This document shows positions 4,283 through 41,901 of a DNA stretch of 64,000 nt, piece after piece. Numbering within the stretch: the stretch's first letter is position 1; every line of letters starts with the position of its first letter. The DNA comes from Marinobacterium sediminicola (GTDB lineage Bacteria > Pseudomonadota > Gammaproteobacteria > Pseudomonadales > Balneatricaceae). The position numbers and the translations under genes are program-made. The stretch covers positions 1,054,001-1,118,000 of the forward strand of contig NZ_CP092123.1 of NCBI RefSeq assembly GCF_022343685.1, written 5' to 3'. The notes under the pieces were generated by a model. The model was not told the origin of the DNA and searched no databases. It saw only the letters and a list, made by a program, of their open reading frames with translations.

Positions 4283-4300
4283 TAGTCTGGATGAACGATG
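4283..4300 (+). promoter_or_regulatory. Conserved 18-bp operator-like element, copy 1 (upstream of DUF1302 gene)
   Basis: TAGTCTGGATGAACGATG, 88 bp before the DUF1302 start. It matches the element seen at four other promoters in this window (13 of 18 positions invariant across all five). The core GTC-N6-GAC half-sites form an imperfect palindrome, degenerate here (AAC). It is probably a binding site for a dimeric regulator. Confidence 0.7.
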
Positions 4301-4388
4301 AGGCGGGCGGTCACCTCCCCGAGCATGTTGTCGTGGCGTTTTATAGCCGCACTACAACAAAAAAAATCATGCTCATTGGAGGGCACGA

Positions 4389-6017
4389 ATGATTAACAAA
4401 AGGACCTTCGCCGGACCCAAGGGGTTTGCCCCTCTGGCGCTGGCGCTCGCTGTCAGTCAGGCTCAGGCATTCGAGACAGTCTACCTGGGGGATGACACGA
4501 CTCTGGATGCGTCGATCACTCTTTCCTATACCGCCTCTGCAAGAACCTCTTCACCTTCAGATGTATATCTGAATAATCCCAATTACGACGATGCGACTCG
4601 CAACTTTGATCAGGGCAGCCTGATCAACAATCGCGTCAACGCACTGGGTGAAATTCGTTTGCGTCATGACAACGTCGGTGCATTGCTGCGTGGCAGCGTG
4701 TTCTACGATGATGTCTATCGCAGCAGCAATGACAACGACTCGGTCGATACCATCAACAAGATCGGTGCCGTTAACCGGTTTACCGATACCACTCGTGAAA
4801 TCAGCGGCTATGATCCGCGTCTGCTGGATGCCTTCGTCTACGGCAATTTCGTCATTGGTGATGATACCTACCTGTCGGTCAAAGCCGGTCGTCATATCGT
4901 TGCCTGGGGCGAGAGCCTGTTCTTCCCCAATATCAGCCAGGGACAGCTGCCGGTGGACGCGGCGGTGTTCAACGTACCGGGTACTGAAGCCAAGGAAGGG
5001 TATCTGCCGGTGGGCCAGCTGTCGGCCAGCCTGACCCTGACCGATAACCTGACCCTGACCGGTTTTTACCAGTACGACTGGGAGAAAACCCGCCTGAATC
5101 CGGTGGGGGACTTTTTTGGTAGTGATTTCTATGGGCCGGGGGCAGAATTTATTCGCACTGACTTCGGAAACATTAACTATGCTGGCGAAATAAAACCCAG
5201 CGACAGTGGTCAGTGGGGTATTGGTGCCCGTTACCTTATGGGGGACAGCACCGAGATTGGCCTGTTCCACTATCGATACCATGATCGCGTCGGGGCCATA
5301 CTTACAGATATTTCAGATAATGGAAGCACGCGCTATTCATCATTCGATAGTTTCAAAGGATGCACATCAAGCGATTTAGGTTGTTTCCAACTTGGATATT
5401 TTGACGATATCAAACTGACCGGTGTCAGCATTAGTTCCAAAGTGGGCGATGTTCAAATCGGCGGTGATATCAGTTATCGCGATAACGCCCCGGTGTATGT
5501 CGCATCTTCTGTGAGTGGTCTTCTCCCTCCTGAGCCCACTCGTGGCAGTTATCTGCAAACCAACCTGAACGGTGTGTATATCCTCGGCCCAAGTGCCTTG
5601 GCACATCAGACCACGTTGATGGCTGAAGTGGTGCACCAGCGTATTCACGATATCGACAAACTTACGATCACTTCCAGCGCAGGTTCCACAGAGTACGATT
5701 TGGCTGAATACGACGGACAGACCCGCGATAACGCTGTGCTGGCTGCCGCCGTCTTCATGGATTACCCCAACCTGTTCAGTGGCTGGGATCTGACCACCAA
5801 GGCGATCTGGACCCAGAATCTGGATGGCAGCGGCTTTGCCGGTGCCGGTCTGGGCCGTGATGAGAAGCGCCTGACGCTGGGGGCCGACTTCAAATACCTG
5901 GGCAACATGCAGGTAGGTCTGACCTGGGTGAACTACCTCAGCTCGGCCAATCTCGACAAGGGCCGCACCATGGCTGACCGCGACTATGTTTCGCTCAGCG
6001 CCAAATACACCTTCTAA
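4389..6017 (+). CDS. DUF1302 family outer-membrane protein
   Basis: This 542-residue protein has an N-terminal signal peptide (cleavage predicted after AQA at residue 27). It is rich in alternating beta-strand segments and ends with an aromatic residue (SAKYTF), as expected for an outer-membrane beta barrel. Sequence features such as VKAGRHIVAWGESLFFPNIS and the glycine/aromatic-rich barrel strands are typical of DUF1302. Members usually sit next to a DUF1329 gene, as here, in clusters for degrading sterols, terpenoids or other hydrophobic compounds, and are thought to help uptake across the outer membrane. That role is inferred from context. A GGAGGG ribosome-binding site precedes the ATG. 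Confidence 0.9.
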   Translation: MINKRTFAGPKGFAPLALALAVSQAQAFETVYLGDDTTLDASITLSYTASARTSSPSDVYLNNPNYDDATRNFDQGSLINNRVNALGEIRLRHDNVGALLRGSVFYDDVYRSSNDNDSVDTINKIGAVNRFTDTTREISGYDPRLLDAFVYGNFVIGDDTYLSVKAGRHIVAWGESLFFPNISQGQLPVDAAVFNVPGTEAKEGYLPVGQLSASLTLTDNLTLTGFYQYDWEKTRLNPVGDFFGSDFYGPGAEFIRTDFGNINYAGEIKPSDSGQWGIGARYLMGDSTEIGLFHYRYHDRVGAILTDISDNGSTRYSSFDSFKGCTSSDLGCFQLGYFDDIKLTGVSISSKVGDVQIGGDISYRDNAPVYVASSVSGLLPPEPTRGSYLQTNLNGVYILGPSALAHQTTLMAEVVHQRIHDIDKLTITSSAGSTEYDLAEYDGQTRDNAVLAAAVFMDYPNLFSGWDLTTKAIWTQNLDGSGFAGAGLGRDEKRLTLGADFKYLGNMQVGLTWVNYLSSANLDKGRTMADRDYVSLSAKYTF

Positions 6018-6034
6018 TCGGCAGGGATGATGAT

Positions 6035-7414
6035 ATGAAATTGAAGTACACCATGCTGGCAGCGGGCGTTGCGCTGCAGACGACATTGATCGCGGGTACG
6101 GCGCTGGCAGCAGCTACGGCTGAGGAACTGGCCGAGCTGGGAACCACGCGTACCTGTGTGGGGGCTCTTAAGGCGGGCAACGCCGAGGGCACGATTCCCG
6201 AGTGGAGCGGCAAGTGGCAGGGCGTGCCTGAACACGTCAACTTCCAGGGCACCGGCAACCATCCGATCGATCCCTATCCGGAAGACAAGCCTCTGTTTGT
6301 GATTACGGCACAGAACATGGATCAGTACGCCGACAAGCTGTCGGCGGGGCAGAAAGCCCTGTTCGACAAGTATCCGGATACGTTCACAATGCCGATCTAT
6401 CCCTCGCGCCGTGATTTCCGCTTCCCGGATAACGTCTGTGACGTTACCCGCAAGAATGCCGAAACGGCGAAGCTGGTGGATAACGGTGAAGGTGTCGAGG
6501 CCACAACCGGTGGCATTCTCTTCCCCTTCCCGAAAACCGGTCTGGAACTGCTGTGGACATCCTCCATCTTCACTTACCGTCCGTGGACTGAAGAGCTGAT
6601 CTCCGACAACGCCTACGTCCTGGAAGATGGCAACATCAACTGGGGCCGAGTGAAGTCCCGTAACCTGGCACCGCACCTGAAGCCGGGTACCAGCGGCCCG
6701 ACTGAAGGTCAGTCCTCCTTCTACCTGAACGAAACCATCCTGCCTGAACGTGATCGTGGCGAGATCAATACCGGGATGGAGTTCTGGAACCATACCGCCG
6801 AACCCCGCCAGAGCTGGCGTTATGACCCGGGCACCCGTCGTGTCCGCCAGTCTCCGGAATATGGTTACGACATGTCCTTCCCGGGTACCGGTGGCTCCAT
6901 CACCGTGGATGAAGTACGTATCTTCAATGGTTCGCCACAACGATATGACTGGAAGATCGTCGGTCAGCAGGAGATGTACATCCCGTACAACACCTACCGC
7001 CTGCATTCTGCTGACATCAGCTATGACGAACTGCTGACGCCGGGCCACGCCAACCCGGAACACATGCGTTACGAGCTGCAGCGCGTATGGGTGCTGGAAG
7101 GCAACCTCAAGGGCGACTACCGCCATATCTACGGCAAGCGTCACATGTATATCGATGCCGACACCTGGTTCATGGTGATGGCTGATAACTATGACGCGCG
7201 TGGAGGCCTCTGGCGTACCTCGATGGTGAATTACTTCTACGCCTATGAGGTACAGACCTGGCAGGCAGGCGTGGGCTTCTACCACGACCTGCAGGCGGGC
7301 AGCTACCTGGCGTTTAACCTGGTTAACGAGCAACCCAAGGCGTACACGCTGAATCGTGGCACCTTGTCCGACCGTGACTTCGGGCCTCAGGCCGCACGTC
7401 GAGCCGGGCTTTAA
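6035..7414 (+). CDS. DUF1329 family outer-membrane/periplasmic protein
   Basis: This 459-residue protein has a signal peptide (MKLKYTMLAAGVALQ..., cleavage near residue 25). Family features include ELGTTRTCVGALKAGNAEGTIPEW near the mature N-terminus, QSWRYDPGTRRVRQSPEYGYD in the middle and MYIDADTWFMVMADNYDARGGLWR late in the protein, all typical of DUF1329 (LolA/LolB-like fold). It is 17 bp after the DUF1302 gene, so the two are surely co-expressed. The proposed role is delivery of a hydrophobic substrate to or through its DUF1302 partner. This is not proven for the family as a whole. Confidence 0.9.
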   Translation: MKLKYTMLAAGVALQTTLIAGTALAAATAEELAELGTTRTCVGALKAGNAEGTIPEWSGKWQGVPEHVNFQGTGNHPIDPYPEDKPLFVITAQNMDQYADKLSAGQKALFDKYPDTFTMPIYPSRRDFRFPDNVCDVTRKNAETAKLVDNGEGVEATTGGILFPFPKTGLELLWTSSIFTYRPWTEELISDNAYVLEDGNINWGRVKSRNLAPHLKPGTSGPTEGQSSFYLNETILPERDRGEINTGMEFWNHTAEPRQSWRYDPGTRRVRQSPEYGYDMSFPGTGGSITVDEVRIFNGSPQRYDWKIVGQQEMYIPYNTYRLHSADISYDELLTPGHANPEHMRYELQRVWVLEGNLKGDYRHIYGKRHMYIDADTWFMVMADNYDARGGLWRTSMVNYFYAYEVQTWQAGVGFYHDLQAGSYLAFNLVNEQPKAYTLNRGTLSDRDFGPQAARRAGL

Positions 7415-7422
7415 GCCTTAAC

Positions 7423-7442
7423 GGGCACCCTTCGGGGTGCCC
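7423..7442 (+). terminator. Hairpin between DUF1329 and ACAD genes
   Basis: GGGCACCC (7423-7430), a TTCG tetraloop and GGGTGCCC (7435-7442) form a very stable 8-bp stem. There is no T-run after it, so it may be an RNA-processing or attenuating hairpin that sets different expression of the outer-membrane and ACAD genes, rather than a full terminator. Confidence 0.6.
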
Positions 7443-7472
7443 ATCTTCACAACCAACGGGGAGCGATGAACC

Positions 7473-8639
7473 ATGGAGTTCCGCTTTACAGAAGAGCAGC
7501 AGATGATTCGTGAAACCGCGGCCGGTTTCTTCGCCGACTGCTCGACCTCCGCCGCAGTGCGAGAGGCGATGGCCACCGAGCGTGGTTATGACCTGTCGCT
7601 CTGGCGGCAGATCTGTGACGACCTTTATCTGCACGCGATCACACTGCCAGAGTCCATTGGCGGTATGGGGCTGGGATATGTCGAACTGATTGCCGTCATG
7701 GAGCAGATGGGGCGCTATCTGGTGTGTGCACCCTATTTTTCCACAGTCTGTCAGGCGGTTCCCGCGTTGCAGCTGGCAGGAGCCGAGGCTGTGTCAGGCC
7801 CCTGGCTGGAACGGATATTGGGCGGGGAGACCGCAACCCTGGCATGGATTGGGCAGGAGCAGCCCGGTTGCGAGGCCGTGACAGCGACCTGTGAGGCGGT
7901 CGAAGATGGCTTCCTGTTGTCCGGTGACTACCGTCTGGTCGTGGATGGCCACAGCGCCGACATTCTGGTGTTGGCTGCACGACAGGCCGGCACGGAAGGT
8001 CGAGAAGGTATCAGTCTGTTCGTAGTGGATGCGGGTACCCAGGGGATAGAACGTCAGTGGACACCGACGCTGGATCAGACCCGGCACTTGGGTCGGATAC
8101 AGGTCGACAACCTGATGCTGCAGGCTGAGGCCTGTCTGGGCAACTCTGGCGAAGCCGGGGCTGTACTGGAACAGGTGCAGCAGCTCGCCACCATCGCTCT
8201 GGCAGCGGAGCAGATGGGTGGTGCCCAGCAGGTACAGGACTTGGCCGTCCAGTACACCCTCGAACGTGAGCAGTTCAATCGCCCCATCGCCAGTTTTCAG
8301 GCGATCAAGCACAAGGCCGCGGACATGATGCTGCGCACTGAGGTGGCCCGTTCCGCCTGTTATTACGCCGCCTGCATCGCCGATGAAGCCTGGCAGGGAG
8401 GCGCCATGGCCGCCGAGTTGCCTGAGGCCGGAGCGGTCGCCAAGTCCTACTGCTCTGATGCCTATTTCCGAAACGCTGGTGAGGCGCTGCAGATGCACGG
8501 TGGGGTCGGCTTCACCTGGGAATACGACGTTCACCTGTATTTCAAGCGTGCCAAAGCCAGCGAATTGATGTTGGGCACGGCCAGCGAGCATCGTGAAACC
8601 CTGGCCAAGTTGTTACTGGATGGAGGAGCCAACGCATGA
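7473..8639 (+). CDS. Acyl-CoA dehydrogenase, beta-type subunit
   Basis: This 388-residue ACAD-fold protein starts MEFRFTEEQQ. It has the flavin-contacting QFNRPIASFQAIKHKAADM segment (~residues 268-286) and a C-terminal LQMHGGVGFTWEYDVHLYFKRAK motif. The middle domain is diverged compared with the alpha-type ACADs and lacks the E-P-x-A-G-S-D loop. This matches the half-active partner in alpha2-beta2 ACADs of steroid catabolism. Its gene overlaps the next ACAD gene by 4 bp (ATGA), so the two products are likely a heterotetramer that desaturates a CoA ester and donates electrons to ETF. A GGGGAG ribosome-binding site precedes it. Confidence 0.88.
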   Translation: MEFRFTEEQQMIRETAAGFFADCSTSAAVREAMATERGYDLSLWRQICDDLYLHAITLPESIGGMGLGYVELIAVMEQMGRYLVCAPYFSTVCQAVPALQLAGAEAVSGPWLERILGGETATLAWIGQEQPGCEAVTATCEAVEDGFLLSGDYRLVVDGHSADILVLAARQAGTEGREGISLFVVDAGTQGIERQWTPTLDQTRHLGRIQVDNLMLQAEACLGNSGEAGAVLEQVQQLATIALAAEQMGGAQQVQDLAVQYTLEREQFNRPIASFQAIKHKAADMMLRTEVARSACYYAACIADEAWQGGAMAAELPEAGAVAKSYCSDAYFRNAGEALQMHGGVGFTWEYDVHLYFKRAKASELMLGTASEHRETLAKLLLDGGANA

Positions 8640-9832: not shown

Positions 9833-9843
9833 CAGGAGGCCTC

Positions 9844-12966: not shown

Positions 12967-13860
12967 ATGGATAAGCTAGGCGAGATGCAGGTGTTTGTTG
13001 CAATCGTGCGCAGTGGTGGTTTTTCGTCTGCGGCGCGTGAGCTGGGACTGTCCCCGTCAGCAGTCAGCAAGCAGGTTACACGCCTCGAAAAGCGATTGGG
13101 GGTGCGTTTGCTGCATCGCACAACCCGCTCGGTGAGAACCACCGAAGCCGGGCAGCAGTTCTACCGTCGCTGTGTGAAAATTATGGCGGACGTTGAAGAT
13201 GCTGAAGATTTGATAAGTGATCTGGGCCAGCTGCCCAAGGGCAAATTGCGTATCAATAGCACCCCCGGTTATGCCCGGCATCAATTGATGCCCCTACTGA
13301 TCGAATTTCAGCAGCTGTATCCCGGTATCACTATCGAGCTTGATCTGACCGGACAAACGGTCAATCTGGTCAGAGAGCAGGTCGATCTGGCGTTCCGGCT
13401 GGGGGAGTTAAGAGACACCAGTCTGGTGGCAAGACGGCTGTGCGAGAGCCCCCGCATTGTATGTGCGAGCCCGGAATACCTGCATAGATATGGAATGCCC
13501 CTGCACCCATCAGAACTCGCCAATCACCAGTGTTTAAGGCTGAATACCAGCGAGGCGTTTAATCAGTGGCGTTTTCGAGGGGGCGATGGTGAATACCGTA
13601 TGGACGTGAAGGGGGGATTCATAACGGATAACGTTGAAGCACTCCACGGCTATGCCCTGTTGGGAGGAGGGATTGCCAGGCTGGCTTCTTTCATCGTCGA
13701 CCAGGATCTTAACGAGGGCAGGCTTGTGCCGTTGCTACAGGACTATCAGACAGATCGGCAGCAGGTGCATTTGGTTTATGCCCATCGCAAGCATCAGCCA
13801 GCCAAGTTGAAGGTTTTTGTGGAGTTTGTGATTAACAGACTGGCCCTGTCGGATACCTGA
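12967..13860 (+). CDS. LysR family transcriptional regulator
   Basis: This 297-residue protein has an N-terminal winged HTH (MQVFVAIVRSGGFSSAARELGLSPSAVSKQVTRLEKRLGV), with LLHRTTRSVRTTEAG completing the domain. The rest is a periplasmic-binding-protein-like effector domain. It is of the CrgA/PA2220-type subgroup judging by the N-terminus. An AGAGGGG ribosome-binding site precedes the ATG. It most likely regulates the divergent GST gene and itself. Any role in the steroid-like regulon is unproven. Confidence 0.93.
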   Translation: MDKLGEMQVFVAIVRSGGFSSAARELGLSPSAVSKQVTRLEKRLGVRLLHRTTRSVRTTEAGQQFYRRCVKIMADVEDAEDLISDLGQLPKGKLRINSTPGYARHQLMPLLIEFQQLYPGITIELDLTGQTVNLVREQVDLAFRLGELRDTSLVARRLCESPRIVCASPEYLHRYGMPLHPSELANHQCLRLNTSEAFNQWRFRGGDGEYRMDVKGGFITDNVEALHGYALLGGGIARLASFIVDQDLNEGRLVPLLQDYQTDRQQVHLVYAHRKHQPAKLKVFVEFVINRLALSDT

Positions 13861-14782: not shown

Positions 14783-15580
14783 TTATTCGCCGGTGAAGTT
14801 GGGGTGCCGTTTCTCCAGAAAGGCCTGCATCCCTTCCTGCTGGTCGCGGGAGGCAAACAGCATGGCGTTGGCCTTGCGCTCAAGGGACAGGGCGCTTTCG
14901 AGTGAAGCATCCATACCGTGCAGGATGCATTCCTTGATCTGTTCAACCGCCAGCGGCGGCATGCGGGCGATGGTGCGGGCTGTTTTCAGCGCCGTTTCCA
15001 TCACCTGATCATCCGGGCAAACCTCACTGACCAGGCCCGCCACCCAGGCTTCCTGTGCGCTGATCGGACGACCGGTCAGCGCCATGCTCATCGCCTTGGT
15101 CTTGCCCACGGCGCGGACAAGGCGCTGGGTGCCACCAATCCCCGGCATGATGCCGATGCGGATCTCGGGCTGGCAAAAACTGGCACTCTCGCCTGCGATG
15201 AGAATGTCGGCATGCATGGCCAACTCGCATCCGCCGCCAAAGGCATAGCCGCAGATCGCTGCTATCACCGGTTTTGGACAGTGCTGAATCGGTGCCCAGA
15301 CGCGCTCGGTGTGGCGCTTGTAGATCTCGATAGGATCAGCGTCGATCAGGCCGGTGATATCACCACCGGCCGCAAATACTTTCTCGCCACCGGTCAGCAC
15401 AATGCAACGCACCTGATCGTCAGCAGCCAGTTCAGTGAAGCGGCGATTGAGTTGTTGTTGCAGCTCCAGACTCAGTGCATTGGTGGCGTGTGGGCGGTTC
15501 AAGCGCAGCACAGCAATACCCGGTTCGGGGTGCTCCAGCAGCAGTGTGTCTTCAGGACGTTGTTGATCAGTCACGGCCAT
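14783..15580 (-). CDS. Enoyl-CoA hydratase/isomerase (canonical crotonase)
   Basis: The protein has about 265 residues from the ATG at 15580 (MAVTDQQ). An upstream in-frame ATG at 15637 lies inside the regulatory element. Crotonase motifs are complete: the oxyanion-hole region AAGGDI and CGYAFGGGCELAMHADI carrying the first catalytic Glu, and ASFCQPEIRIGIMPGIGGTQRL carrying the second. Both acid/base glutamates of crotonase (E144 and E164 in rat numbering) are therefore kept, and it should hydrate trans-2-enoyl-CoA. It heads a minus-strand unit with the SDR, driven from a promoter region holding one copy of the 18-bp element. Confidence 0.88.
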   Translation of the reverse strand: MAVTDQQRPEDTLLLEHPEPGIAVLRLNRPHATNALSLELQQQLNRRFTELAADDQVRCIVLTGGEKVFAAGGDITGLIDADPIEIYKRHTERVWAPIQHCPKPVIAAICGYAFGGGCELAMHADILIAGESASFCQPEIRIGIMPGIGGTQRLVRAVGKTKAMSMALTGRPISAQEAWVAGLVSEVCPDDQVMETALKTARTIARMPPLAVEQIKECILHGMDASLESALSLERKANAMLFASRDQQEGMQAFLEKRHPNFTGE

Positions 15581-15634: not shown

Positions 15635-15652
15635 CATCGTCCATTCAGACGA
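15635..15652 (-). promoter_or_regulatory. Conserved 18-bp operator-like element, copy 2 (upstream of enoyl-CoA hydratase)
   Basis: On the minus strand this reads TCGTCTGAATGGACGATG, 54 bp before the hydratase start. Here the half-sites are perfect: TCGTC-N6-GACGA. It lies in the divergent region shared with the SDR-chsH2 operon starting at 15712, so it could control both directions. Confidence 0.72.
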
Positions 15653-15711
15653 AGAGTGAAGTTCGCCGGGCTTATTAGACTGCAAGCATCAAGAAGAATA
15701 AGGAGGCGTTT

Positions 15712-16494
15712 ATGACGCAGTCAGCATACTTTGATTACAGCGGCCAGGTGGTTCTGGTGACCGGCGGAACCAAGGGGATTGGTGCCGGTATTGCCCGCGC
15801 GTTTCTGGCAGCGGGTGCGACGGTGATTGTATGCGGTCGCAACGCTCCTGAGCAAATGCCATCCGGAAATGGACGCGAAGCGGTGTTCATGCCGTTGGAC
15901 GTGCGTGACTATGAAGCAGCCGACGTCATGCTGCAGACCATCGTCAATGAATATGGCCGTCTGGATGTGCTGATCAACAATGCCGGCGGTGCACCCCATG
16001 CGCTGGCGGCAGACGTATCGCCGCGCTTCCATGAAGGCATTCTGCGCCTGAACCTGATTGCTCCGCTGAACCTTGCGCAGCTGGCCAACCGCCACATGCA
16101 ACAGCAGAAGCAGGGCGGCAACATCATCTTTATCGGCAGCATCAGCGCGCTGCGTGCCTCTCCCGGTACTGCTGCCTACGGTGCTGCCAAGGCCGGTATT
16201 CTCTCGCTGGCATCCTCGCTGGCGGTGGAATGGGCACCCAAGGTGCGCGTGACGGCCGTCAGCCCAGGGCTGGTCGAGACTGAGCAGTCTCACCTGCACT
16301 ACGGCGACGAAGCCGGTATCGCGGCGGTAGCCGCAACGATCCCGGCCGGCCGCATGGCAACGCCGGACGATATCGGCAATGCATGCCTCTATATGGCTTC
16401 ATCGATCGCATCCTATGCCAGCGGCAGCAATCTGCTGCTCAATGGTGGCGGCGAGAAGCCCGCATTTCTTCAGGCCGGTAAGGCCAACAACTGA
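15712..16494 (+). CDS. Short-chain dehydrogenase/reductase
   Basis: This 260-residue classical SDR has TGGTKGIGAG at residues 17-26, NNAGG, IIFIGSISAL with the catalytic Ser, YGAAKAG with Tyr and Lys, and a C-terminal YASGSNLLLNGGG. A strong AAGGAGG ribosome-binding site precedes it. It leads the operon that carries the side-chain module (MaoC-DUF35, ACAD, MaoC, aldolase, ACADs), so it probably handles a 3-hydroxyacyl or ring hydroxyl group of the same substrate. The exact position of oxidation is not deducible. Confidence 0.88.
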   Translation: MTQSAYFDYSGQVVLVTGGTKGIGAGIARAFLAAGATVIVCGRNAPEQMPSGNGREAVFMPLDVRDYEAADVMLQTIVNEYGRLDVLINNAGGAPHALAADVSPRFHEGILRLNLIAPLNLAQLANRHMQQQKQGGNIIFIGSISALRASPGTAAYGAAKAGILSLASSLAVEWAPKVRVTAVSPGLVETEQSHLHYGDEAGIAAVAATIPAGRMATPDDIGNACLYMASSIASYASGSNLLLNGGGEKPAFLQAGKANN

Positions 16495-26434: not shown

Positions 26435-28195
26435 ATGACTCTAAAATATCGTCTTATCTTCGGCTTTGTCGCGATCGCGGCGGTCATGAGTGCCTTCAGT
26501 CTGGTGATCGCACGCAAAGAAGTCGTTGCCATGCGTGGCTTTGATAACCTGGTGAAGATCAACAGCCAGGAGACTTATCACGCCGCCAGAACCAGCATGT
26601 TGCTGCAGAGAACCAAATCCAATCTGCGTGAACTCATCGTTGAAGCAGCTGTGGGAGTGGAGACGGATGAGATCATCTATACCCTTGATGTCGTATCGGA
26701 ATCACTGGCTGAATTAGAGCACTTGAGTGCCAGTTGGCTGGAGATCGTCAATCGAGACCTCTCCCACTCGGATGATTTTGACGAAGCGCTGGTGGAAGAT
26801 GAGCGCGAGGAGCTTGAGGAATTACAGGAGGTCAAGGAACAGCTGGCCTCTTTCATTAGTGCCAGCCGGGAGCTGTTGAGCCTTTATCAGCAGAAGCCCG
26901 ATGGTCTGTCGGAAATGTATGAGTTTTTTGAGCATGAGCTCGAAAACCCTTCACGCCAGCTGCAGTTGAACCTGCAGGAACTCTGGGACGACACTCAGGA
27001 AGAGGCTGAAGAGGAAAGTGCGCGCTTTATTGCGTCGCTGGAAGAGGTGTTCTATCTGGCGCTGGCGTTATCAGGGCTTTCGATTCTGCTGGCAGGTGTC
27101 GCAGGTATCAGCTATTCGCACTGGATTACCCGTTCGCTGAATCGGGTCATGGTGGGTATCCGGTCGATCCACAAAGGGGATTATGGCGTCACACTGCCCA
27201 TAAAGGGGGATGATGAAATCGCGCAACTGTCGCTGGCACTGAATCACCTGTCCAGCCAGCTTGAGGCCAATATCGAGGCTCGAGAAGTCGCCGAGGAACA
27301 GTTGCAGATGTTCAACCAGGAACTCGACGCCATCGTCGAGAATCTGCCCGCCATGTTGTTCCTCAGAGATGCCGATAGCCTCAAGTTCGTGCGGCTGAAC
27401 AAGGCCGGAGAAAACCTGCTGGGGTTGAGTCGAGATCAGGTCATCGGCAAAACGGTATATGATCTGTTCCCGCATGATCAGGCGAGCCGCTTTTCTTCCA
27501 TGGACAGCGAACTGGTGACCAATCGTCGTGAAGTCGTGGTGGATTTGAGAATCGACACGCCAGCAGGGCCACGTGATCTGCATGCGCGCAAGATCGCGCT
27601 CAGGGACAGTGCGGGTAAAGTCAGGTTTTTGCTGGGTGTGGCAACGGATGTCACCGAAGAAAAGCGCCTGCGTGATGATTTACAGAACCTGGCCAGTCAT
27701 GATGCGCTTACCGGATTGCTGAATCGCCGGGTCCTGATGGAACAGCTCAATACCGAGGTTGCACGTGCCACGCGTTATGGTAACCCGCTGAGCCTGATCA
27801 TGTTTGATGCGGACCACTTCAAGAAAGTCAACGACCACTATGGGCACCAGGCGGGTGATCGTGTGCTGCATGACCTGGCGAAAGTGACCGGGCAACTCAT
27901 TCGTACCAGCGATATTGCCGGCCGATACGGTGGCGAGGAGTTCATGCTGGTGCTGCCCATGACCGATGCGGCCAGTGCAAAAGAGTTGGCAGAGCGTCTG
28001 CGGGAGCGTGTCGCGGAACTGTTGATACCACAGGTGTCTGAGTGCGACGAGGCGATCAGCATCACCATCAGCCTGGGGGTCGCCAGTCTTGCGGGTGAAA
28101 TCAATACCACCCAGGAACTGATTCGTGCGGCAGATGAAGCGCTGTATCGTGCCAAGCATGAAGGACGAAACCGTGTGTGCGTGGCACACGCCTGA
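26435..28195 (+). CDS. Membrane-bound diguanylate cyclase (HAMP-PAS-GGDEF)
   Basis: This 586-residue protein has TM1 (about residues 5-27), a mostly helical, very acidic periplasmic region, TM2 (about 207-230), HAMP, a PAS domain (about 295-415; AMLFLRDADSLKFVRLNKAGENLLGL) and a C-terminal GGDEF domain. The active-site motif is GGEEF and the inhibitory I-site RxxD (RTSD) is present five residues upstream, so it should make c-di-GMP under product control. With the neighbouring MCP it forms a small signalling block inside the catabolic island, possibly linking substrate sensing to motility or biofilm formation. Confidence 0.93.
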   Translation: MTLKYRLIFGFVAIAAVMSAFSLVIARKEVVAMRGFDNLVKINSQETYHAARTSMLLQRTKSNLRELIVEAAVGVETDEIIYTLDVVSESLAELEHLSASWLEIVNRDLSHSDDFDEALVEDEREELEELQEVKEQLASFISASRELLSLYQQKPDGLSEMYEFFEHELENPSRQLQLNLQELWDDTQEEAEEESARFIASLEEVFYLALALSGLSILLAGVAGISYSHWITRSLNRVMVGIRSIHKGDYGVTLPIKGDDEIAQLSLALNHLSSQLEANIEAREVAEEQLQMFNQELDAIVENLPAMLFLRDADSLKFVRLNKAGENLLGLSRDQVIGKTVYDLFPHDQASRFSSMDSELVTNRREVVVDLRIDTPAGPRDLHARKIALRDSAGKVRFLLGVATDVTEEKRLRDDLQNLASHDALTGLLNRRVLMEQLNTEVARATRYGNPLSLIMFDADHFKKVNDHYGHQAGDRVLHDLAKVTGQLIRTSDIAGRYGGEEFMLVLPMTDAASAKELAERLRERVAELLIPQVSECDEAISITISLGVASLAGEINTTQELIRAADEALYRAKHEGRNRVCVAHA

Positions 28196-28290: not shown

Positions 28291-30420
28291 TCAGAGCTTA
28301 ACAGCGGCTTTCATGCCCGAGCGAAGGGCGCCCTCGATATAGGCGACTTCGTCACCATCACCGATATTGACCACCTCGATACCCTGCTTTTCAAGGCTGC
28401 TGCTCAGGCAGCGATTGGTGTCGGCACCGATTGCCAGAACCACCGAATCCGCCGCCAGCTCGTGGCTGTTGCCTTCGGCATCCGAGTAGTTCAGCGCCTT
28501 TTTGCCAATGGTGTGCACCTGGGTGTTTTTCTCCATTCGCACGCCGTGGCTCTCAAGATTGTGCAGCACCTTCCAGCGACGCACGATTGAAAGCTCGGCG
28601 CCCAGATCAGGGCCGGGTTCGAGGACATGCACATTACGACCACGTTCGACCAGGAACTCGGCCAGCTCCAGGCCGACCAGCCCGCCACCGATGATGGTGA
28701 CGTTCTTGCCCAGCGGCATCCACAGCTTGGACAGGCTCTGCATTGCTTCGGTGCTGTTGGTGACGCCGACCAGTGAGCCGGACTTCATCATCATGCGCTG
28801 GGTGACGCTGAGCTTGCGCTTGGCGATGTCGGAACCTTCACCGGTCATCAGTTTACGCAGCTCATCACCTGACCAGACATGTTTCTGATCGGCACCGGGA
28901 ATATCCGGGGCATTGCGGCGCGCACCTACGGCCACAATCACCTGATCAGGTTGCAGCTCTTTGACCAGTGCATCGTCCGCGTTGGTGTTCAGCCGGACAT
29001 CAATCGGCAGATCACGTACCTGCTTGATCAGATAGTCGAGCAGAGCCCCGTTCTCGGGATAGGCGAGGGCGGCAAAGAACAGGGTGCCGCCCAGACGGCC
29101 ACTGCGCTCGACCAGGGTTACCTGATGGCCGCGCAGGGCGCTGACGCGGGCGGCTTCCAGACCGGCGGGGCCACCGCCGACCACCAGCACTTTCTTCGGG
29201 CTGTCGCTGGCGATCAGCTGCAACTCGGATTCGTGGCCGGTCTGCGGGTTGACGGCACACTTGACCCGCTCGTTGACAAAAATCTGGCTAACACAGGCGT
29301 AGCAGTAGATGCAGGGGCGCACATCGGCCGCACGATTGTCCTTCAGCTTGTTGGGCAGGTCAGGATCGGCCAGCAGCTTGCGTCCCATGGCAACGAAGTC
29401 GCAATTGCCATCGGCAATGGCCTTATCGGCCATTTCCGGGTCGATACGACCCGCGGCCGTCACCGGAATATTCAGCGCCTTGCGAATGTGTGCAGCCCAG
29501 TCGAGGAACATGCCCCGTTGCTGCGGAATCGGTGCCTTGGTGAAGGCGTTACCGCTGCTCAGGTTGGCGTAGGCCGAAACGCTGATCAGGTCGATACCGG
29601 CCTCCTGCGCCATCTGCGCGGTGAGGGTCGCGTCTTCAAGGCTGATCCCGCCGGGCAGGTCCAGTTCCAGAGCATCCATGCGCATCCACACCGGGTAGTC
29701 CCGACCGACACGTTCACGGATGGCATGGATGACTTCAAGCAGCAGGCGGGCACGGTTTTCCAGCGGGCCACCATATTCGTCATCGCGCTTGTTGTAATAG
29801 GGCGAGAGGAAACCGGCAATGATGTAGGTGTGACCTGCATGGATCTCGACCCCGTCAAAACCGGCTTTTTTGGCCCGCTCCGCGGCGTCGGCGAACCAGG
29901 TCACCATCTGTCGGATATCATCCTTGTCCATCACACGGATGCGGACACCGGATTTTTCCCGGCCCTTGGATGAGCTGATAAAGCGGCCTAGCTCCGACTG
30001 CGTCAGCGATGCGAACATGTCGGTATTGGCGGCCGGCGGCATGGACGGTACCCAAAGCTCCCGGCCTTCGGCCAGATCGCGTACCGATGTTTTGCCCGCA
30101 TGCTGAAGCTGCATGGCGATCTTGGCGCCATGCTTGTGCACGCGGTCGGTCAGTTGCTTGAGCCCGGGGATGAAATCATCAGACGATACACCCACCTGAA
30201 ACGGCTCGGCGGTGCCGGCCGGATAGGCGATGGAACACACGCCCATGGTGAGCATGCCGGCGCCACCCTTGGCACGGGCCTCGTAGAACGCCTGAATGCG
30301 TTCGCCACAGGTGCCATCCTGCTCGGCGTAGTTGGACCCCATCGGGGCCATCAATATGCGGTTTTTCAGCTCAAGCGAGCCGATCTTGCCCGGGGTAAAA
30401 AGGTGTTGATAAGCGGCCAT
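28291..30420 (-). CDS. 2,4-dienoyl-CoA reductase-like / BaiCD-type NADH:flavin oxidoreductase
   Basis: The protein has about 709 residues from ATG 30420, preceded by AGGAG at 8 bp. The N-terminal OYE TIM barrel (1-340) has EIHAGHTYIIAGFLSP and RDDEYGG. A 4Fe-4S motif (CX2CX2CX11C; CIYCYAC...KC) lies around 350-366. The C-terminal FAD/NAD(P) domains have VVGGGPAGLEAARV and IIGGGLVGLELAEFL. This is the architecture of FadH and of the bile-acid enone reductases BaiCD/BaiH. It would reduce a conjugated C=C next to a carbonyl. It follows the HsaD-like gene in a minus-strand unit. Whether it acts on a ring enone or on dienoyl-CoA is unknown. Confidence 0.9.
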   Translation of the reverse strand: MAAYQHLFTPGKIGSLELKNRILMAPMGSNYAEQDGTCGERIQAFYEARAKGGAGMLTMGVCSIAYPAGTAEPFQVGVSSDDFIPGLKQLTDRVHKHGAKIAMQLQHAGKTSVRDLAEGRELWVPSMPPAANTDMFASLTQSELGRFISSSKGREKSGVRIRVMDKDDIRQMVTWFADAAERAKKAGFDGVEIHAGHTYIIAGFLSPYYNKRDDEYGGPLENRARLLLEVIHAIRERVGRDYPVWMRMDALELDLPGGISLEDATLTAQMAQEAGIDLISVSAYANLSSGNAFTKAPIPQQRGMFLDWAAHIRKALNIPVTAAGRIDPEMADKAIADGNCDFVAMGRKLLADPDLPNKLKDNRAADVRPCIYCYACVSQIFVNERVKCAVNPQTGHESELQLIASDSPKKVLVVGGGPAGLEAARVSALRGHQVTLVERSGRLGGTLFFAALAYPENGALLDYLIKQVRDLPIDVRLNTNADDALVKELQPDQVIVAVGARRNAPDIPGADQKHVWSGDELRKLMTGEGSDIAKRKLSVTQRMMMKSGSLVGVTNSTEAMQSLSKLWMPLGKNVTIIGGGLVGLELAEFLVERGRNVHVLEPGPDLGAELSIVRRWKVLHNLESHGVRMEKNTQVHTIGKKALNYSDAEGNSHELAADSVVLAIGADTNRCLSSSLEKQGIEVVNIGDGDEVAYIEGALRSGMKAAVKL

Positions 30421-30471: not shown

Positions 30472-31302
30472 TCAACCCTGCTGCAGAAAGTCGATACAGG
30501 TGCGGTTGAACAGATCGGTATGTTCGACCTGAACCCAGTGACCGCAACGGTTGAGCATGAGGAATCGGGCCTCGGGTGCCTTGTCGAGGAACTTGAACAC
30601 GCCTTCGACCGGGTTGAAACGGTCATTGCTGCCCCAGAAGCCAAGGATCGGGCAGGTGAGTTCACCCAGACGCTCGGTCATGTTCGGCACCATCATGGTG
30701 GAAAACAGGTTGGCCGGCTGAGTGACAGCAACCGCAGCACGCTCGGCAAGCAGTGCATCTTCCAGCTGGGACGCATCATAGAGCTGCAGCTGCATCACCT
30801 GACGCATCTCTTCCACACCCATAGGCCCCTGGCCATAGACTTCGACCATGCGCTTGATCCCTTCCATCTGGAAGTAGGTTTCACGCTCTTCGACACCGCC
30901 GGGTGCCATCAGCACCAGGCGTTCAACGGTAGCCGGATGGGCCAATGCCTGGCCCAGCGCGATGGCGCCACCCAGTGAGTTGCCCAGCAGGCTGCAGCGC
31001 TCGATGCCGGTGGCCTGCAGGAACTGGTTCAGGCACTCGACAAAGAATTCGAGGTTGTAATGGGCGTCTTCCGGCTTGCTGGAACGTCCAAAGCCCGGCA
31101 GGTCCAACACGATGTTGCGATAACCGGCTTCGGCAAAGACGGGATAGTTGGTCTTGAAATTGCTGAAACCGCTGGCACCGGGGCCGCTGCCGTGCAGCCA
31201 GAGCACGACCGGGCCTTCACCCACGTCCAGATAGTGTAATGTCAGGCCGTTTTCGAGTTGGGCGTAATGGCCGATTGGCAGTGGCAGGTCCTGATGATCC
31301 AT
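30472..31302 (-). CDS. hsaD: Alpha/beta hydrolase, meta-cleavage-product hydrolase (HsaD/TesD-like)
   Basis: This protein has 276 residues from ATG 31302 (AAGGAGA ribosome-binding site), rather than 31332. The oxyanion region GSGPGASGFSNFK, nucleophile elbow GNSLGG, acid in FWGSNDRFNP and His in RCGHWVQVEH are the full triad and signatures of C-C bond hydrolases of the BphD/MhpC/HsaD group. In steroid catabolism HsaD splits the ring-A cleavage product into HIP and a hydroxyhexadienoate. An extradiol dioxygenase that would make such a product lies at 41902. A copy of the 18-bp element is upstream. The symbol is by inferred function. Confidence 0.86.
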   Translation of the reverse strand: MDHQDLPLPIGHYAQLENGLTLHYLDVGEGPVVLWLHGSGPGASGFSNFKTNYPVFAEAGYRNIVLDLPGFGRSSKPEDAHYNLEFFVECLNQFLQATGIERCSLLGNSLGGAIALGQALAHPATVERLVLMAPGGVEERETYFQMEGIKRMVEVYGQGPMGVEEMRQVMQLQLYDASQLEDALLAERAAVAVTQPANLFSTMMVPNMTERLGELTCPILGFWGSNDRFNPVEGVFKFLDKAPEARFLMLNRCGHWVQVEHTDLFNRTCIDFLQQG

Positions 31303-31385: not shown

Positions 31386-31403
31386 CATCGTCCGTTCAGA
31401 CCA
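31386..31403 (-). promoter_or_regulatory. Conserved 18-bp operator-like element, copy 3 (upstream of hydrolase)
   Basis: On the minus strand this reads TGGTCTGAACGGACGATG, 83 bp before the hydrolase start. It faces away from copy 4, only 18 bp further on, so the divergent promoter region has one element for each direction. Confidence 0.75.
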
Positions 31404-31421: not shown

Positions 31422-31439
31422 TAGTCTTGATGGACGATG
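31422..31439 (+). promoter_or_regulatory. Conserved 18-bp operator-like element, copy 4 (upstream of SDR-ligase operon)
   Basis: TAGTCTTGATGGACGATG, 84 bp before the SDR start at 31524. It is on the opposite strand to copy 3. The equal distances (83 and 84 bp) to the two start codons argue that the element has a fixed place in the promoter. Confidence 0.76.
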
Positions 31440-31523
31440 TTCGACTTGCATGGCTGGTCAAAGATGCATCACACAACAAGAACCTGAAAGCGGTGTGCCT
31501 GAGGGTGCACAGGAGGATGTGTG

Positions 31524-32255
31524 ATGAAACATCAAGGCAAGGTGGTATTCGTGACCGGTGCCGGTCAGGGCATGGGTCAGGCTGTGGTGAAGCAGTTTGC
31601 AGCCGAAGGCGCCAAAGTGGCAGCCATCGATATCAACAAGGAGGCCGCGGAAGCCACGGCTGCATCCTGTGAGGGTGAGGTCATTGCGATCGCCTGTGAC
31701 ATCTCCAACAGCGAATCGGTCAAGGGCGCGATGCAGCAGGTCAAAGACGCCTTTGGCCGTCTTGATGTGGTGGTCAACAACGCCGGTATCGGCTCTGTCG
31801 ACGAGTTTCTCAATACGCCGGATGACAACTGGGAGCGCGTAATTGGCGTTAACCTGACCGGTACCTTCCTGTGCTGTCGTGAAGGCGCACGCCTGATGGC
31901 CGAAAACGGCAGCGGAGCGATCATCAACGTATCCAGTTCTGCGGTCATGTCCGGAGAAGGCCCGAGCCACTATGTGGCGTCCAAGGCCGGTGTCATGGGC
32001 CTGACCCGCAGTATCGCCCGTGAACTGGCGCCCAACGGCATCCGCGTTAACACCCTGGTTCCGGGTGCAACCAACACACCGATGATGGCCGGTATTCCCG
32101 AAGAGTGGATGCAGCAGATGATCAGCACCATCCCGATGGGCCGCATGGCCGAGCCGGAAGACGTGGCCAAGGTCGCTTCTTTCCTGGCCAGCGACGACGC
32201 AGGCTTCATCACCGGACAGAACATTGCCGTCAACGGCGGCATGGTTTTCATCTGA
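31524..32255 (+). CDS. Short-chain dehydrogenase/reductase (FabG-like)
   Basis: This protein has 243 residues from ATG 31524 (AGGAGG 7 bp upstream). Motifs: TGAGQGMGQ, NNAGIG, INVSSSAVMSGEG, YVASKAGV and the C-terminal GFITGQNIAVNGGM. It resembles NAD-dependent hydroxysteroid/cyclohexanol-type SDRs of the FabG-like group. It opens an operon with the NTF2-like protein, CoA ligase, aldolase/thiolase and DUF35-MaoC fusion, so it may oxidise a ring or side-chain alcohol early in the pathway. Substrate inferred from context only. Confidence 0.88.
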   Translation: MKHQGKVVFVTGAGQGMGQAVVKQFAAEGAKVAAIDINKEAAEATAASCEGEVIAIACDISNSESVKGAMQQVKDAFGRLDVVVNNAGIGSVDEFLNTPDDNWERVIGVNLTGTFLCCREGARLMAENGSGAIINVSSSAVMSGEGPSHYVASKAGVMGLTRSIARELAPNGIRVNTLVPGATNTPMMAGIPEEWMQQMISTIPMGRMAEPEDVAKVASFLASDDAGFITGQNIAVNGGMVFI

Positions 32256-36956: not shown

Positions 36957-36986
36957 GCCGCCCTTCGCGAGAGGGGCGGCTTTTTT
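36957..36986 (+). terminator. Rho-independent terminator after the ligase/aldolase operon
   Basis: GCCGCCC (36957-36963) and GGGCGGC (36974-36980) form a stem followed by six T (36981-36986), 31 bp after the DUF35-MaoC stop codon. Confidence 0.93.
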
Positions 36987-37072
36987 GGTTTGGAATGCGG
37001 CAGCATTTTGCTGGATGTTTGGTTAGCACACCGTCTCAACGCCCAGGCAGGTAGATTTGACTATTCTTAAGG

Positions 37073-38415: not shown

Positions 38416-38430
38416 TTGTGGGTGCTAAGG

Positions 38431-38434
38431 AGGT
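38431..38434. repeat. Target-site duplication AGGT (left of IS)
   Basis: AGGT at 38431-38434 is repeated at 39433-39436 directly outside the two inverted ends of the element. This indicates a fairly recent insertion with intact borders. Confidence 0.7.
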
Positions 38435-39432
38435 TGTTCACGCCGGTTAAGTTCGAGATGCTGGTTATCGCCAAACAAACAGCACAGAACAACCGACATG
38501 AACAACCCTCACAAGAATGCCCGAACTACGCCTCATATTCGAGCCCTGATCGTTGATCGAGCCCTCCGTAAGCGGCAGCCGGTGCGAGACATTGCCAGCA
38601 CTTTTGGTATCAGCACGCACACTGTGTACAAGTGGATTGCTCGTTATCGAGAGGCAGGTGAGGCTGGTCTTGAGTCAGCATCCAGCCGTCCCCACGCCTC
38701 ACCGAGGCAGATGCCGAAACAGTGGGTTGAGCTGATTCAGAAGATGCGCCTGACACTCAAGTGGACTGCCAAGCAGATCGCACAGGCACTGAGTCTGGCT
38801 TACTCCACAGTGACAGCTGTACTGCGCCGACTTAAGCTCAATCGAGCCTCACACCTGGAGCCGGTGCAACCTGCGCAGCGCTACGAACACCCCGCGCCGG
38901 GTGACATGCTGCATATGGATATCAAGAAGCTGCCTCGCTTCGACAGGCCCGGCCACCGCGTGACAAACAACCGTCGCCAGAATACCCGAGGTGCGGGTTA
39001 TGAGTGCGTTCATATCTGTATTGATGATCACAGCCGCTGGGCGTTTGCCCGGGTACTACCAGATGAGCAGCAAGGCACCACAACGCGCTTTTTGGAAAAC
39101 GCTCTAGCGGCCTACCGCGGAATAGGTGTAGAGGTGAAACGCCTGATGACCGATAACGGTCCAGCCTATCGTTCCCGTCGGTTCAATGCAGTTTTACAAC
39201 GGGAAGGGATCAAGCATGTATACACGCGCCCATACACGCCCAGAACGAACGGCAAGGCGGAGCGATTTATACAAACAATGATCAGGGAGTGGGCATATGC
39301 AGTGCCCTACGCAAACGACATATCAAGGGCCTGGGCGCTGACAGACTGGATCAACCACTACAATAAACAGCGCCCTCATGGCAGTATCGGAAATCTACCG
39401 CCGGTGTCTCGAATACCGAAGCTGCGTGAACA
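38435..39432 (+). mobile_element. IS481-family insertion sequence, complete
   Basis: The element is 998 bp. Left end TGTTCACGC (38435-38443) matches right end GCGTGAACA (39424-39432) as a perfect 9-bp inverted repeat. Further in, TTCGAGA recurs in both ends with a 2-base offset. It begins with TGT, as IS481-family ends do, and is flanked by the 4-bp duplication AGGT. It carries one transposase gene. The ends were deduced here from sequence alone. Confidence 0.82.
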
Positions 39433-39442
39433 AGGTGTTTAG
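38498..39442 (+). CDS. IS481-family transposase
   Basis: This 314-residue protein has an N-terminal HTH (VRDIASTFGISTHTVYKWIARYREAGEAGL) and a second HTH (WTAKQIAQALSLAYSTVTAVLRRL), then an rve-type DDE catalytic domain: Asp in MLHMDIKKLPRF, Asp in LMTDNGPAYRS and Glu in NGKAERFIQTM. YNKQRPHGSIGNLPPVSR is the usual family C-terminus. The reading frame crosses the right end of the element, so the last codons and the stop (TAG, 39440-39442) come from the target DNA. It looks intact. Confidence 0.93.
   Translation: MNNPHKNARTTPHIRALIVDRALRKRQPVRDIASTFGISTHTVYKWIARYREAGEAGLESASSRPHASPRQMPKQWVELIQKMRLTLKWTAKQIAQALSLAYSTVTAVLRRLKLNRASHLEPVQPAQRYEHPAPGDMLHMDIKKLPRFDRPGHRVTNNRRQNTRGAGYECVHICIDDHSRWAFARVLPDEQQGTTTRFLENALAAYRGIGVEVKRLMTDNGPAYRSRRFNAVLQREGIKHVYTRPYTPRTNGKAERFIQTMIREWAYAVPYANDISRAWALTDWINHYNKQRPHGSIGNLPPVSRIPKLREQGV
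39433..39436. repeat. Target-site duplication AGGT (right of IS)
   Basis: This is the second copy of the AGGT direct repeat flanking the IS481 element. The transposase stop codon follows 3 bp later, outside the element. Confidence 0.7.
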
Positions 39443-39660
39443 TATTCACACCTAGTCGATGAAAGTGGGAAGATTATTTCGTGCCCTGCTCTCGACTAAG
39501 TAGCATAAACAAGTCTATGTTGTTCGCCACTACGTGGCCGGACTCGCTGAAACTCGCCGCAAATTGAGGCGTTAATGACATAATTTGTACGGTTTGTATG
39601 TCAATGCATGGCCCACTTAACGTCCGCTCTGGGCCAAAACCAAACTAAATCACAGACCCT

Positions 39661-39706
39661 GCGCCTCTTGAAGCGTATTGCTTGTTTCAAGAGGCGCTGT
39701 CTTTTT
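39661..39706 (+). terminator. Strong Rho-independent terminator, probably bidirectional
   Basis: GCGCCTCTTGAA (39661-39672) and TTCAAGAGGCGC (39686-39697) form a perfect 12-bp stem followed by a T-run (39702-39706). It lies 13 bp from the stop of the minus-strand hydroxylase gene, so besides stopping rightward transcripts from the IS it likely also ends the hydroxylase mRNA. Confidence 0.88.
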
Positions 39707-39718
39707 AAAGCAGCTTGA

Positions 39719-41644
39719 TCAGATCATAAACTCATCAAAGAACGCACTCAGCTCCTCATGTGCATCCAGTGGCAGGATGGTGGCGATATGCTGGTCGGGG
39801 CGAACCACGACCATGCAGCCGTTGGTGCGATCGATGCCACGCTGCTCGAAGATATCCATGCCTTCCTCGGTACGGAAGACCTTTTCGTAATCCCTCAGGC
39901 CGTATTTGCCCTTGGCCGGCCAGAGGTAATCCGGCATCTGTTCGATGCCCAGATCCTGTTGCTGGAATACCGCATAGGTGTCGATCACGGCGTCGATATC
40001 GGCGCCTTCAGGCGTGTATTTCTTCACTGGTGAGGTGGCTGCATTGGCCAGGAAGTCGATCAGTTTGCCGGATTTCGAGTTCGTTTCCAGCGGACTTTGC
40101 TCGTCGCCGAAGATAAAGATGCGCCAGCGACCGTCGGCTTTCACCAGGTGGCCCAGATGCACCGGCCGGCCATCGGCCAGGCGAACCGCTTCGGCCGAGT
40201 GGAAGCGCTGGCCAATGGGGTAGCCGGTTGCCAGTCCCTGATGTTCATGGCCGGTACAGAGGTAGGATTCATCGTAGCCGATGGAGGTGCCGGCAATGAA
40301 ACCGTTCTGTCGGGCGATGAACTTCTCGATATCAGCGGTGCTCTTCTTCGTTGGTTGTTCATCCTGATTGGCCGTCGGACGGGTCGCCACCAGTTTGGAC
40401 ATCTCGCGGTCGGCATTGATCAGCATGAAGGCGACTTTGCGACGTTCGTCCTCGTAGGTTTGCAGCAGCTTGGGATGGCTTTTGCCCTGAATGACAGCAG
40501 CCAGTTTCCAGCCCAGGTTGAAGGTGTCGGGCAGGGAAGTGTTCAGGCCCCAGCCACCCTTGGGGCTGTGGGTGTGACAGGCATCGCCGGCCACAAAGGC
40601 TCGCGGAATCAGATTGTCAGGGTTGCCCGCCGGGGTGTCGTCAAAGCGATCGGCGACACGTTGACCGACTTCGTAGATGGACCACCAGGCCACTTCCTTC
40701 ACATCCAGTGTGTAAGGATGCATGATCAGCTGTGCCTTGGCGATGATGTCGTCGGCGGTCATGTCCAGCTGTGAGGCGCGTTGATCCTTGTCGAGCAGGT
40801 CAAGTTCGACATAGAGGCGAACCAGATAGCCGCCCTCGCGCGGGACGATCATCACCGCCCCGTTTTCCTTCGACTGGACAAAGCTTTTTACGCGGATGTC
40901 GGGGAAGTCGGTCACGGGCAGAACATCCATGACACCCCAGGCCTTGTTGGCGGAATCCCCTTCAAGCTGGATGCCCAGGTTCTTGCGCACCGCACTGCGC
41001 GCGCCGTCACAGCCGACCACGTAGCGTGCCTTGATGGTTTCGACCTTGGCTGACTGGCTGGCACCGATGCGTTCAAAGGTGGCAGTGATCGGGTGGGCGC
41101 TCAGGTCCTGAGTCAGGCTTTCATCGACGTCCAGTTCAAGCAGGCGTCGGCTGTAATGCGGCACCAGATGGGTGACGGAACGCTCCATCCCTTCAAGCAG
41201 CAGTTCGTGCAGACGAGCCTGGTTGACGACCCCGTGGACAAACTCGGACAGGCCAAGACGCGCATCGCGTACCCTGTGGGTGCGTTTGATGTTTTCAGGA
41301 TGCTCGGTATCCGGCTCCCAGAAGGCGTTCTGGCGCAGCTGATAGCATTCTTTCACCATCATTTCGCTGCAGTTGAAAGCTTCCATGATCTCCATGGTAC
41401 GGCAGGAAATACCATCCGCCTGGCCGAACAGCAGCGGGCCGTCCTTCTGATCAACGATACAGGTCTTGATATCGGCAAATTCCGACAGCTGACGTGCCAG
41501 CGCAAGCCCGGCAGGGCCGCAGCCCACAATCAGGACATCCACTTCTTTGGGCAGGTCCACGATCGGTGGAATGGGGGCAGGTTCACGGGCCGCATCCGGG
41601 ATCTCGTAGTTGCCGGGCTTAAAGCCGTTGAGATGATACTGCAT
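39719..41644 (-). CDS. FAD-dependent aromatic hydroxylase, MobA/phenol 2-monooxygenase-like
   Basis: This protein has 641 residues from ATG 41644 (AGAGGA upstream). N-terminal FAD motif VDVLIVGCGPAGLALARQL (about residues 32-50), second motif GCDGARSAVRKNLG, third AFVAGDACHTHSPKGGWGLNTSL, and a C-terminal thioredoxin-like dimerisation domain, as in phenol hydroxylase and MobA (3-hydroxybenzoate 4-monooxygenase), whose start (MQ.HLNGF.PGN) it shares. It should add an OH ortho to a phenol to make a catechol. It is divergent from an extradiol dioxygenase gene, a logical next enzyme. It may replace HsaAB here. Confidence 0.88.
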   Translation of the reverse strand: MQYHLNGFKPGNYEIPDAAREPAPIPPIVDLPKEVDVLIVGCGPAGLALARQLSEFADIKTCIVDQKDGPLLFGQADGISCRTMEIMEAFNCSEMMVKECYQLRQNAFWEPDTEHPENIKRTHRVRDARLGLSEFVHGVVNQARLHELLLEGMERSVTHLVPHYSRRLLELDVDESLTQDLSAHPITATFERIGASQSAKVETIKARYVVGCDGARSAVRKNLGIQLEGDSANKAWGVMDVLPVTDFPDIRVKSFVQSKENGAVMIVPREGGYLVRLYVELDLLDKDQRASQLDMTADDIIAKAQLIMHPYTLDVKEVAWWSIYEVGQRVADRFDDTPAGNPDNLIPRAFVAGDACHTHSPKGGWGLNTSLPDTFNLGWKLAAVIQGKSHPKLLQTYEDERRKVAFMLINADREMSKLVATRPTANQDEQPTKKSTADIEKFIARQNGFIAGTSIGYDESYLCTGHEHQGLATGYPIGQRFHSAEAVRLADGRPVHLGHLVKADGRWRIFIFGDEQSPLETNSKSGKLIDFLANAATSPVKKYTPEGADIDAVIDTYAVFQQQDLGIEQMPDYLWPAKGKYGLRDYEKVFRTEEGMDIFEQRGIDRTNGCMVVVRPDQHIATILPLDAHEELSAFFDEFMI

Positions 41645-41901
41645 CACAGAATCCTCTTATCGTTATTGGTCGGCTGACTATTACTTTAGTGCCTGATATT
41701 GGCGTTTGTCAGATGGGTTAAGCCTAGGCGTTCAGCCCGAGAGGGTTTGTCACCTGAAAATGGGGACAAGAGAATCACGGTCTTCCAGCCCCGGATTTGA
41801 TCCCATTCATTTTTCCGAATTCTGTTTAGTCTCAATGGACGATGAGACGCTGTACCTCCCTTCCGATAATGGGCAAAAGAACAAGACCCCGGAGGGATGA
41901 G
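41645..41901. other. Divergent promoter region, hydroxylase/dioxygenase
   Basis: This 257-bp gap holds one copy of the 18-bp element near its right end. A GATAAT hexamer (about 41866-41871), ~21 bp after the element, is a possible -10 box for the dioxygenase operon. No second element facing the hydroxylase was found. Confidence 0.5.
41827..41844 (+). promoter_or_regulatory. Conserved 18-bp operator-like element, copy 5 (upstream of dioxygenase operon)
   Basis: TAGTCTCAATGGACGATG, 57 bp before the dioxygenase start at 41902. It is nearly identical to copy 4, differing only at positions 7-8. Confidence 0.76.

Follow-up and report, generated by a model that had tools for sequence, protein, structure and literature searches.

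The steroid genes of Comamonas testosteroni are activated by TeiR/TesR, which the cited passages present as a LuxR-type positive regulator, required for induction and encoded with the steroid genes (PMC6895838, PMC8700777, PMC6678751, PMC8399759). One of these passages knows tesR-like genes from C. testosteroni alone; another describes P. stutzeri Chol1 as carrying TeiR-like genes, deletion of one of which delays growth on cholate (PMC8399759 and unpublished data cited there). No operator for TeiR/TesR-like proteins is named in the literature searched, the original TeiR paper lying outside that search. Here we analyse an 18-bp element in a steroid-gene island of Marinobacterium sediminicola, starting from a 64,000-nucleotide stretch (the window, genome 1054001-1118000 of 3,554,135 bases in this 3.55-Mb genome). 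We propose, with a probability of roughly 0.85, that this element serves as operator for a one-component regulator of the LuxR type encoded in the island (window 2194-3351, TeiR/TesR-like), which would act by class II activation.

An initial annotation of the window had reported five 18-bp sites spaced 54-88 bp from the start codons that follow. All five are found at the positions and strands listed below, with 13 of 18 positions identical throughout, as had been counted, and with 88, 54, 83, 84 and 57 bp between motif end and start codon; none would be expected by chance (0 in 100 dinucleotide-preserving shuffles). A scan of the whole genome, as the annotation had suggested, returned these five exact matches alone and none for the reversed pattern. 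The conserved core is TMGTCY-N4-GRACGA, followed by TG. The partial palindrome described earlier holds for the 16 bp of this core, the final TG lying outside it. A search allowing up to two mismatches and a matrix scan of 135.5 kb located seven more good sites to the left of the window, up to 40 kb away, giving 12 over about 81 kb. The regulon proposed earlier is therefore supported but was drawn too small, as seven of its 12 good sites lie outside the window. Sites and candidate regulators are as follows (window coordinates unless marked genome).

4283..4300, +, operator copy, 88 bp before the DUF1302 gene (4389); -10-like GAGCAT at 4321-4326 (weak)
15635..15652, -, operator copy, 54 bp before the enoyl-CoA hydratase-like gene (14783-15580, -); -10-like CAGAAT at 15615-15610, offset 19
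15637..15654, +, second reading of the 15635 palindrome, 57 bp before the gene at 15712; -10-like TAGACT at 15676-15681
31386..31403, -, operator copy, 83 bp before the HsaD-like gene (30472-31302, -); -10-like GAGGAT at 31365-31360
31422..31439, +, operator copy, 84 bp before the SDR gene at 31524; -10-like AAAGAT at 31460-31465
41827..41844, +, operator copy, 57 bp before the HsaC-like gene (41902); -10-like GATAAT at 41865-41870
genome 1014529, further site, SDR gene
genome 1020530, further site, flavin reductase gene
genome 1028899, further site, MFS gene
genome 1031877, further site, ketosteroid dehydrogenase-like gene
genome 1049857, further site, BNR protein gene, then MMPL transporter
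genome 1049893, further site, HsaA-like gene
genome 1052354 (1.6 kb left of the window), further site, SDR, OYE, two genes, then LuxR
2194..3351, +, LuxR-type (GerE helix-turn-helix, HTH) regulator of 385 amino acids, proposed binder
54992..55645, +, TetR/AcrR-type regulator in the island, not supported as binder

The palindrome at 15635 serves both flanking genes, and the same arrangement is found in a second Marinobacterium genome (G177). With the refined pattern and at most one mismatch, 13 of the 22 matches in the genome fall within the 81 kb (binomial 2e-16, the interval having been chosen from the data). A 46-column model was built from 40 sites, eight of its rows coming from this genome and every row being picked for a -10-like hexamer; all 10 of its matches here at E<=0.05 lie inside the steroid island (150 of 907 first-look candidates scored). 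The sites at 1028899 and 1049857 are not among the 10.

The spacing between the motif and a -10-like hexamer is nearly constant. From 200 sites scoring at least 19, the 90 whose 45 downstream bases were at least 60% identical to those of a kept site were dropped. About 93 of the 110 non-redundant sites retained have a -10-like hexamer starting at offset 20 or 21 past the motif (sites with N dropped), as do 9 of the 12 good sites in the island. Among the 110, 61 have the pattern xAxxxT beginning at offset 20 and 37 at offset 21, and any other offset accounts for 0-15 (15 at offset 19). If the hexamer occupies -12 to -7, the dyad centre would fall at -42.5 or -43.5. With a 17-bp spacer the -35 hexamer would begin at motif position 16, where ATG (positions 16-18) would replace the TTG of TTGACA. 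The motif would be only partly palindromic because this ATG doubles as the start of a poor -35 element.

Class II activators of the LuxR family bind a dyad lux-type box that overlaps the -35 element and is centred near -42.5. The lux box of the acyl-homoserine lactone (AHL)-type LuxR has ACCTGT/ACAGGT arms and measures 20 bp. The element described here shares with such boxes the dyad form, the overlap with -35 and the centre near -42.5, as judged from the hexamers at offset 20-21, which would place it with class II LuxR-type promoters. It differs from the lux box in being of the GTC-N6-GAC type and 16 rather than 20 bp long, and the AHL-type arms are absent from the site sequences. The operators of KstR/KstR2 (Actinobacteria) and EdcR (Caenibius) are likewise palindromes before steroid genes, but the proteins that bind them repress, unlike the proposed LuxR activator. 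For EdcR, the passage cited (PMC8700777) gives a palindrome, TnnCnnTACnAnTnGTAnnGnnA, that overlaps -10, whereas the Marinobacterium operator would overlap -35.

Comparison with orthologous clusters, also suggested initially, shows that sites precede homologous genes in many genera. We collected 80 named LuxR loci (56-87% identity) from Marinobacterium, Shewanella, Halomonas, Thauera, Zoogloea, Aromatoleum, Pseudomonas and others. The own-genome matrix (score at least 17) gave 213 matches in 79 of the 80 loci against 1.5 in shuffles. Of the 249 sites in a set of 109 loci, in which some genomes count twice, 210 are at most 350 bp from a called start and 15 within called genes. Among the first genes after these sites, the commonest resemblances are to the SDR at genome 1013700 (30), HsaA (29) and the BNR protein (22), followed by the gene at genome 1057430 (16) and the hydratase at window 14783 (14). 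Plasmids were scanned at a score of at least 14, where mononucleotide shuffles give 0-0.3. A Vibrio alfacsensis plasmid carries four matches, ahead of the LuxR-holding run, a hydratase/SDR pair and an HsaA-like gene. There are six on a Caballeronia plasmid, three on that of Cupriavidus C39, three on one of Burkholderia arboris (two inside called genes) and two on a Sphingobium plasmid, one 54 bp before an annotated KshA gene and one inside a gene. Some site pairs are two readings of one palindrome. The sites thus recur beside LuxR orthologues in both Gamma- and Betaproteobacteria.

The LuxR and the exact refined pattern were both sought in the same 293 genomes of the order. Six encode the LuxR at above 300 bits (G000, G177, G258, G139, G122 and G007), and these hold 5, 6, 5, 4, 9 and 4 exact sites respectively, not all near the LuxR. 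At least four exact sites occur in nine genomes of the order, namely these six and G182, G254 and G265 (hypergeometric 1e-10, although the genomes are not independent). HsaA-like genes (E<=1e-80) are present in 58, the six LuxR genomes and 52 others; 37 of these 52 have no exact site, 14 have one to three and G254 has four. Contrasts within genera, counted with the 46-column model, run the same way: G218 has 0 matches against 10, 10 and 8 in its congeners, G085 and G266 have 0 against 5 in G139, G163 has 0 against 4 in G007, and G094 and G170 have 0 and 1 against 5 in G122. Eight of the 15 site-bearing genomes among the 52 belong to one family (f29) whose LuxR relatives are 27-30% identical and which mostly share the site TAGTCCACTTGGACGATG. 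CATAAT stands at offset 21 after this site in both regions read, so the operator code may extend beyond the close LuxR group. A search that began from the pattern in 369 genomes of the class found G514 to be the richest besides our own (6 against 5), with G556 at 4. The LuxR was then sought in 80 of the 369 (21 with at least two matches, seven others picked and 52 with none), and G514 alone among those 80 has it at 1e-30 (50 and 45%). An HsaA relative is present in two other genomes, G514 among them, where a site lies 98 bp ahead of the called start of that gene. In a different family (f40) a variant operator, TAGCC-N5-GAGGTATG, exact at three HsaA promoters, was rejected as a regulon motif: in 11 genomes it gave 19 matches with at most one mismatch against 31 in the control, and its exact sites number one each in G106, G180, G261 and G241.

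The annotation had named two candidate binders, and the evidence favours the LuxR-type protein over the TetR, whose orthologues do not track the motif. The LuxR-type protein is encoded among HsaA/C/D-like genes, which themselves score below the NCBIfam equivalog cut-offs. Its GerE HTH (PF00196, residues 327-370) passes narrowly in Pfam, at 24.4 bits against a cut-off of 23.5. A LuxR-type protein of about 385-390 amino acids (the length of TeiR) within a steroid cluster fits the TeiR/TesR group, a likeness of type, size and gene context. TeiR is described, in the passages cited, as a polar membrane protein with kinase activity, whereas no kinase family was found in the Marinobacterium protein with Pfam. 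The predicted structure has a mean pLDDT (predicted local distance difference test) of 77 and a pTM (predicted template modelling score) of 0.48. Foldseek gave low TM scores (0.19-0.37 of the query among the first 50 matches), and we tentatively place GAF-like and PAS-like parts ahead of the HTH in this model. The peptide RNT[AG]RAHLR is common to the LuxRs of the six genomes and of G174, these relatives having been found by whole sequence. The recognition helix was set aside as proof, as 57 proteins had been picked by peptide patterns from that same helix and its invariance is partly by construction. A second LuxR paralogue, 63-64% identical, occurs in G177 (L103, contig C25) and in G258 (C11), and L103 has its own motif sites in G177.

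The operator at genome 1052354 heads a run of genes that precede the LuxR gene, which starts 104 bp after its neighbour; the gap holds an inverted repeat (ACGAGCCCG/CGGGCTCGT). Co-transcription and autoregulation of the LuxR are likely, not certain. The two genes immediately before it, which we take to resemble electron-transfer flavoprotein subunits, have no NCBIfam match at 1e-60; on the Vibrio plasmid, where gene order is the same, those two genes are annotated as such subunits.

From the sites, their clustering in the island, their co-occurrence with the LuxR, their recurrence before homologous genes and the -10 spacing, all computed directly, we infer binding, activation, a ligand and autoregulation. 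A LuxR dimer would bind the 16-bp near-palindrome, centred some 42.5-43.5 bp upstream of the transcription start, overlap the poor -35 element and recruit RNA polymerase to the -10 hexamer 20-21 bp past the motif. The trigger is probably a steroid or breakdown product detected by the GAF/PAS-like sensor part. Uptake, ring-cleavage and beta-oxidation genes would be switched on together, and positive feedback is likely, the operator at genome 1052354 lying upstream of the gene for the regulator itself. We give an even chance to the broader notion that steroid catabolism throughout Gamma- and Betaproteobacteria is under a single operator code, TMGTCY-N4-GRACGA near -42.5, with a GAF/PAS-LuxR one-component steroid sensor as its reader; Alphaproteobacteria may perhaps be included, given the Sphingobium site before KshA. 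If true, direct class II activation would replace the kinase-cascade picture of TeiR and steroid regulons could be read straight from genome sequence. A defined operator, one candidate regulator and a predicted start site make the control directly testable and allow regulon prediction in many genera; the operator also offers a promoter part for steroid biosensors.

Several observations weigh against this LuxR mechanism. In this genome the refined pattern with at most one mismatch is no more frequent than its reversed control (22 against 20), and the search allowing up to two mismatches gave 26 against 29. Place alone separates the island sites from chance, and two-mismatch matches elsewhere in the genome were rejected as not above chance. 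The best hexamer falls at offset 19 in three of the 12 good sites of the island, and the hexamers include weak ones. G182, G254 and G265, which look unrelated, each have four exact sites, and G556 has its four sites without a LuxR match at 1e-30. The 80 loci with conserved sites were selected by the LuxR. No site lies within about 1.5 kb of relatives L052, L056, L058 and L060, whose recognition helix is much the same, and Cupriavidus necator N-1 (LuxR 37%) gave 0 matches in 27.8 kb. G218 lacks both the LuxR and HsaA, the LuxR and steroid genes having been gained and lost together. Some of the motif-LuxR co-occurrence could therefore mirror the gene island itself.

Tests of co-occurrence covered the LuxR and the TetR. 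Another regulator, inside the island or elsewhere (for example the LysR at 12967), might bind the motif while the LuxR acts elsewhere or indirectly, and a precedent is the LysR-type HsdR, which according to the passage cited takes part in control of Comamonas hsdA (PMC6678751). We regard this as unlikely, given that the LuxR tracks the motif in the tests made and that the dyad form and centre near -42.5 are typical of LuxR-type activators. The TetR/AcrR-type protein (54992) sits inside the island and might act like KstR, repressing from the palindrome until a steroid-CoA ligand releases it, much as TetR-type repressors govern steroid genes in Actinobacteria (PMC8399759). The same source reports that bile acid-degrading Proteobacteria lack KstR homologues. 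Orthologues of the TetR (80 and 93%) are confined to Marinobacterium G177 and G258 among 48 genomes; the best match in motif-bearing G139 is no better than 4e-6, and G007 and G122 have only AcrR-like proteins at about 30%. The operator, moreover, lies upstream of and overlapping -35 and not over -10. The TetR was rejected as binder, and its role here is very improbable.

More improbable still is an alternative-sigma or extended promoter element in place of an operator. The nearly fixed distance to the -10-like hexamer and the overlap of the motif end with the -35 position would suit it. A near-palindrome that is read both ways at divergent genes, extends well upstream of -35 and tracks the LuxR does not. 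Chance, or copied promoter DNA without function, is scarcely credible: some flanks are alike between close relatives, hence the 90 redundant sites, yet none were expected in shuffles and the 110 sites with unlike downstream sequence retain both motif and -10 spacing.

Other features of the island were also recorded. The DUF1302 gene (window 4389-7414, +) and a DUF1329 gene (genome 1024680-1026071, -) both have operators ahead, that of the latter, at 1026188, being weak; their products perhaps serve steroid uptake at the outer membrane. An OYE-type flavoenzyme (window 28291-30420, -) lies beside the HsaD-like gene, its best NCBIfam match being BaiCD at 495 bits against a cut-off of 825. The island also encodes a HAMP-PAS-GGDEF protein (window 26435-28195, +) and, between its genes left of the window, an IS110-type transposase (genome 1041121-1042071, -). 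A TAGACTTTTTGGACGATG-like sequence occurs in four Marinobacterium genomes, at genome 2913032 (+) here and at similar sites in G177, G258 and also G218, which lacks the LuxR; it is probably unrelated to the operator.

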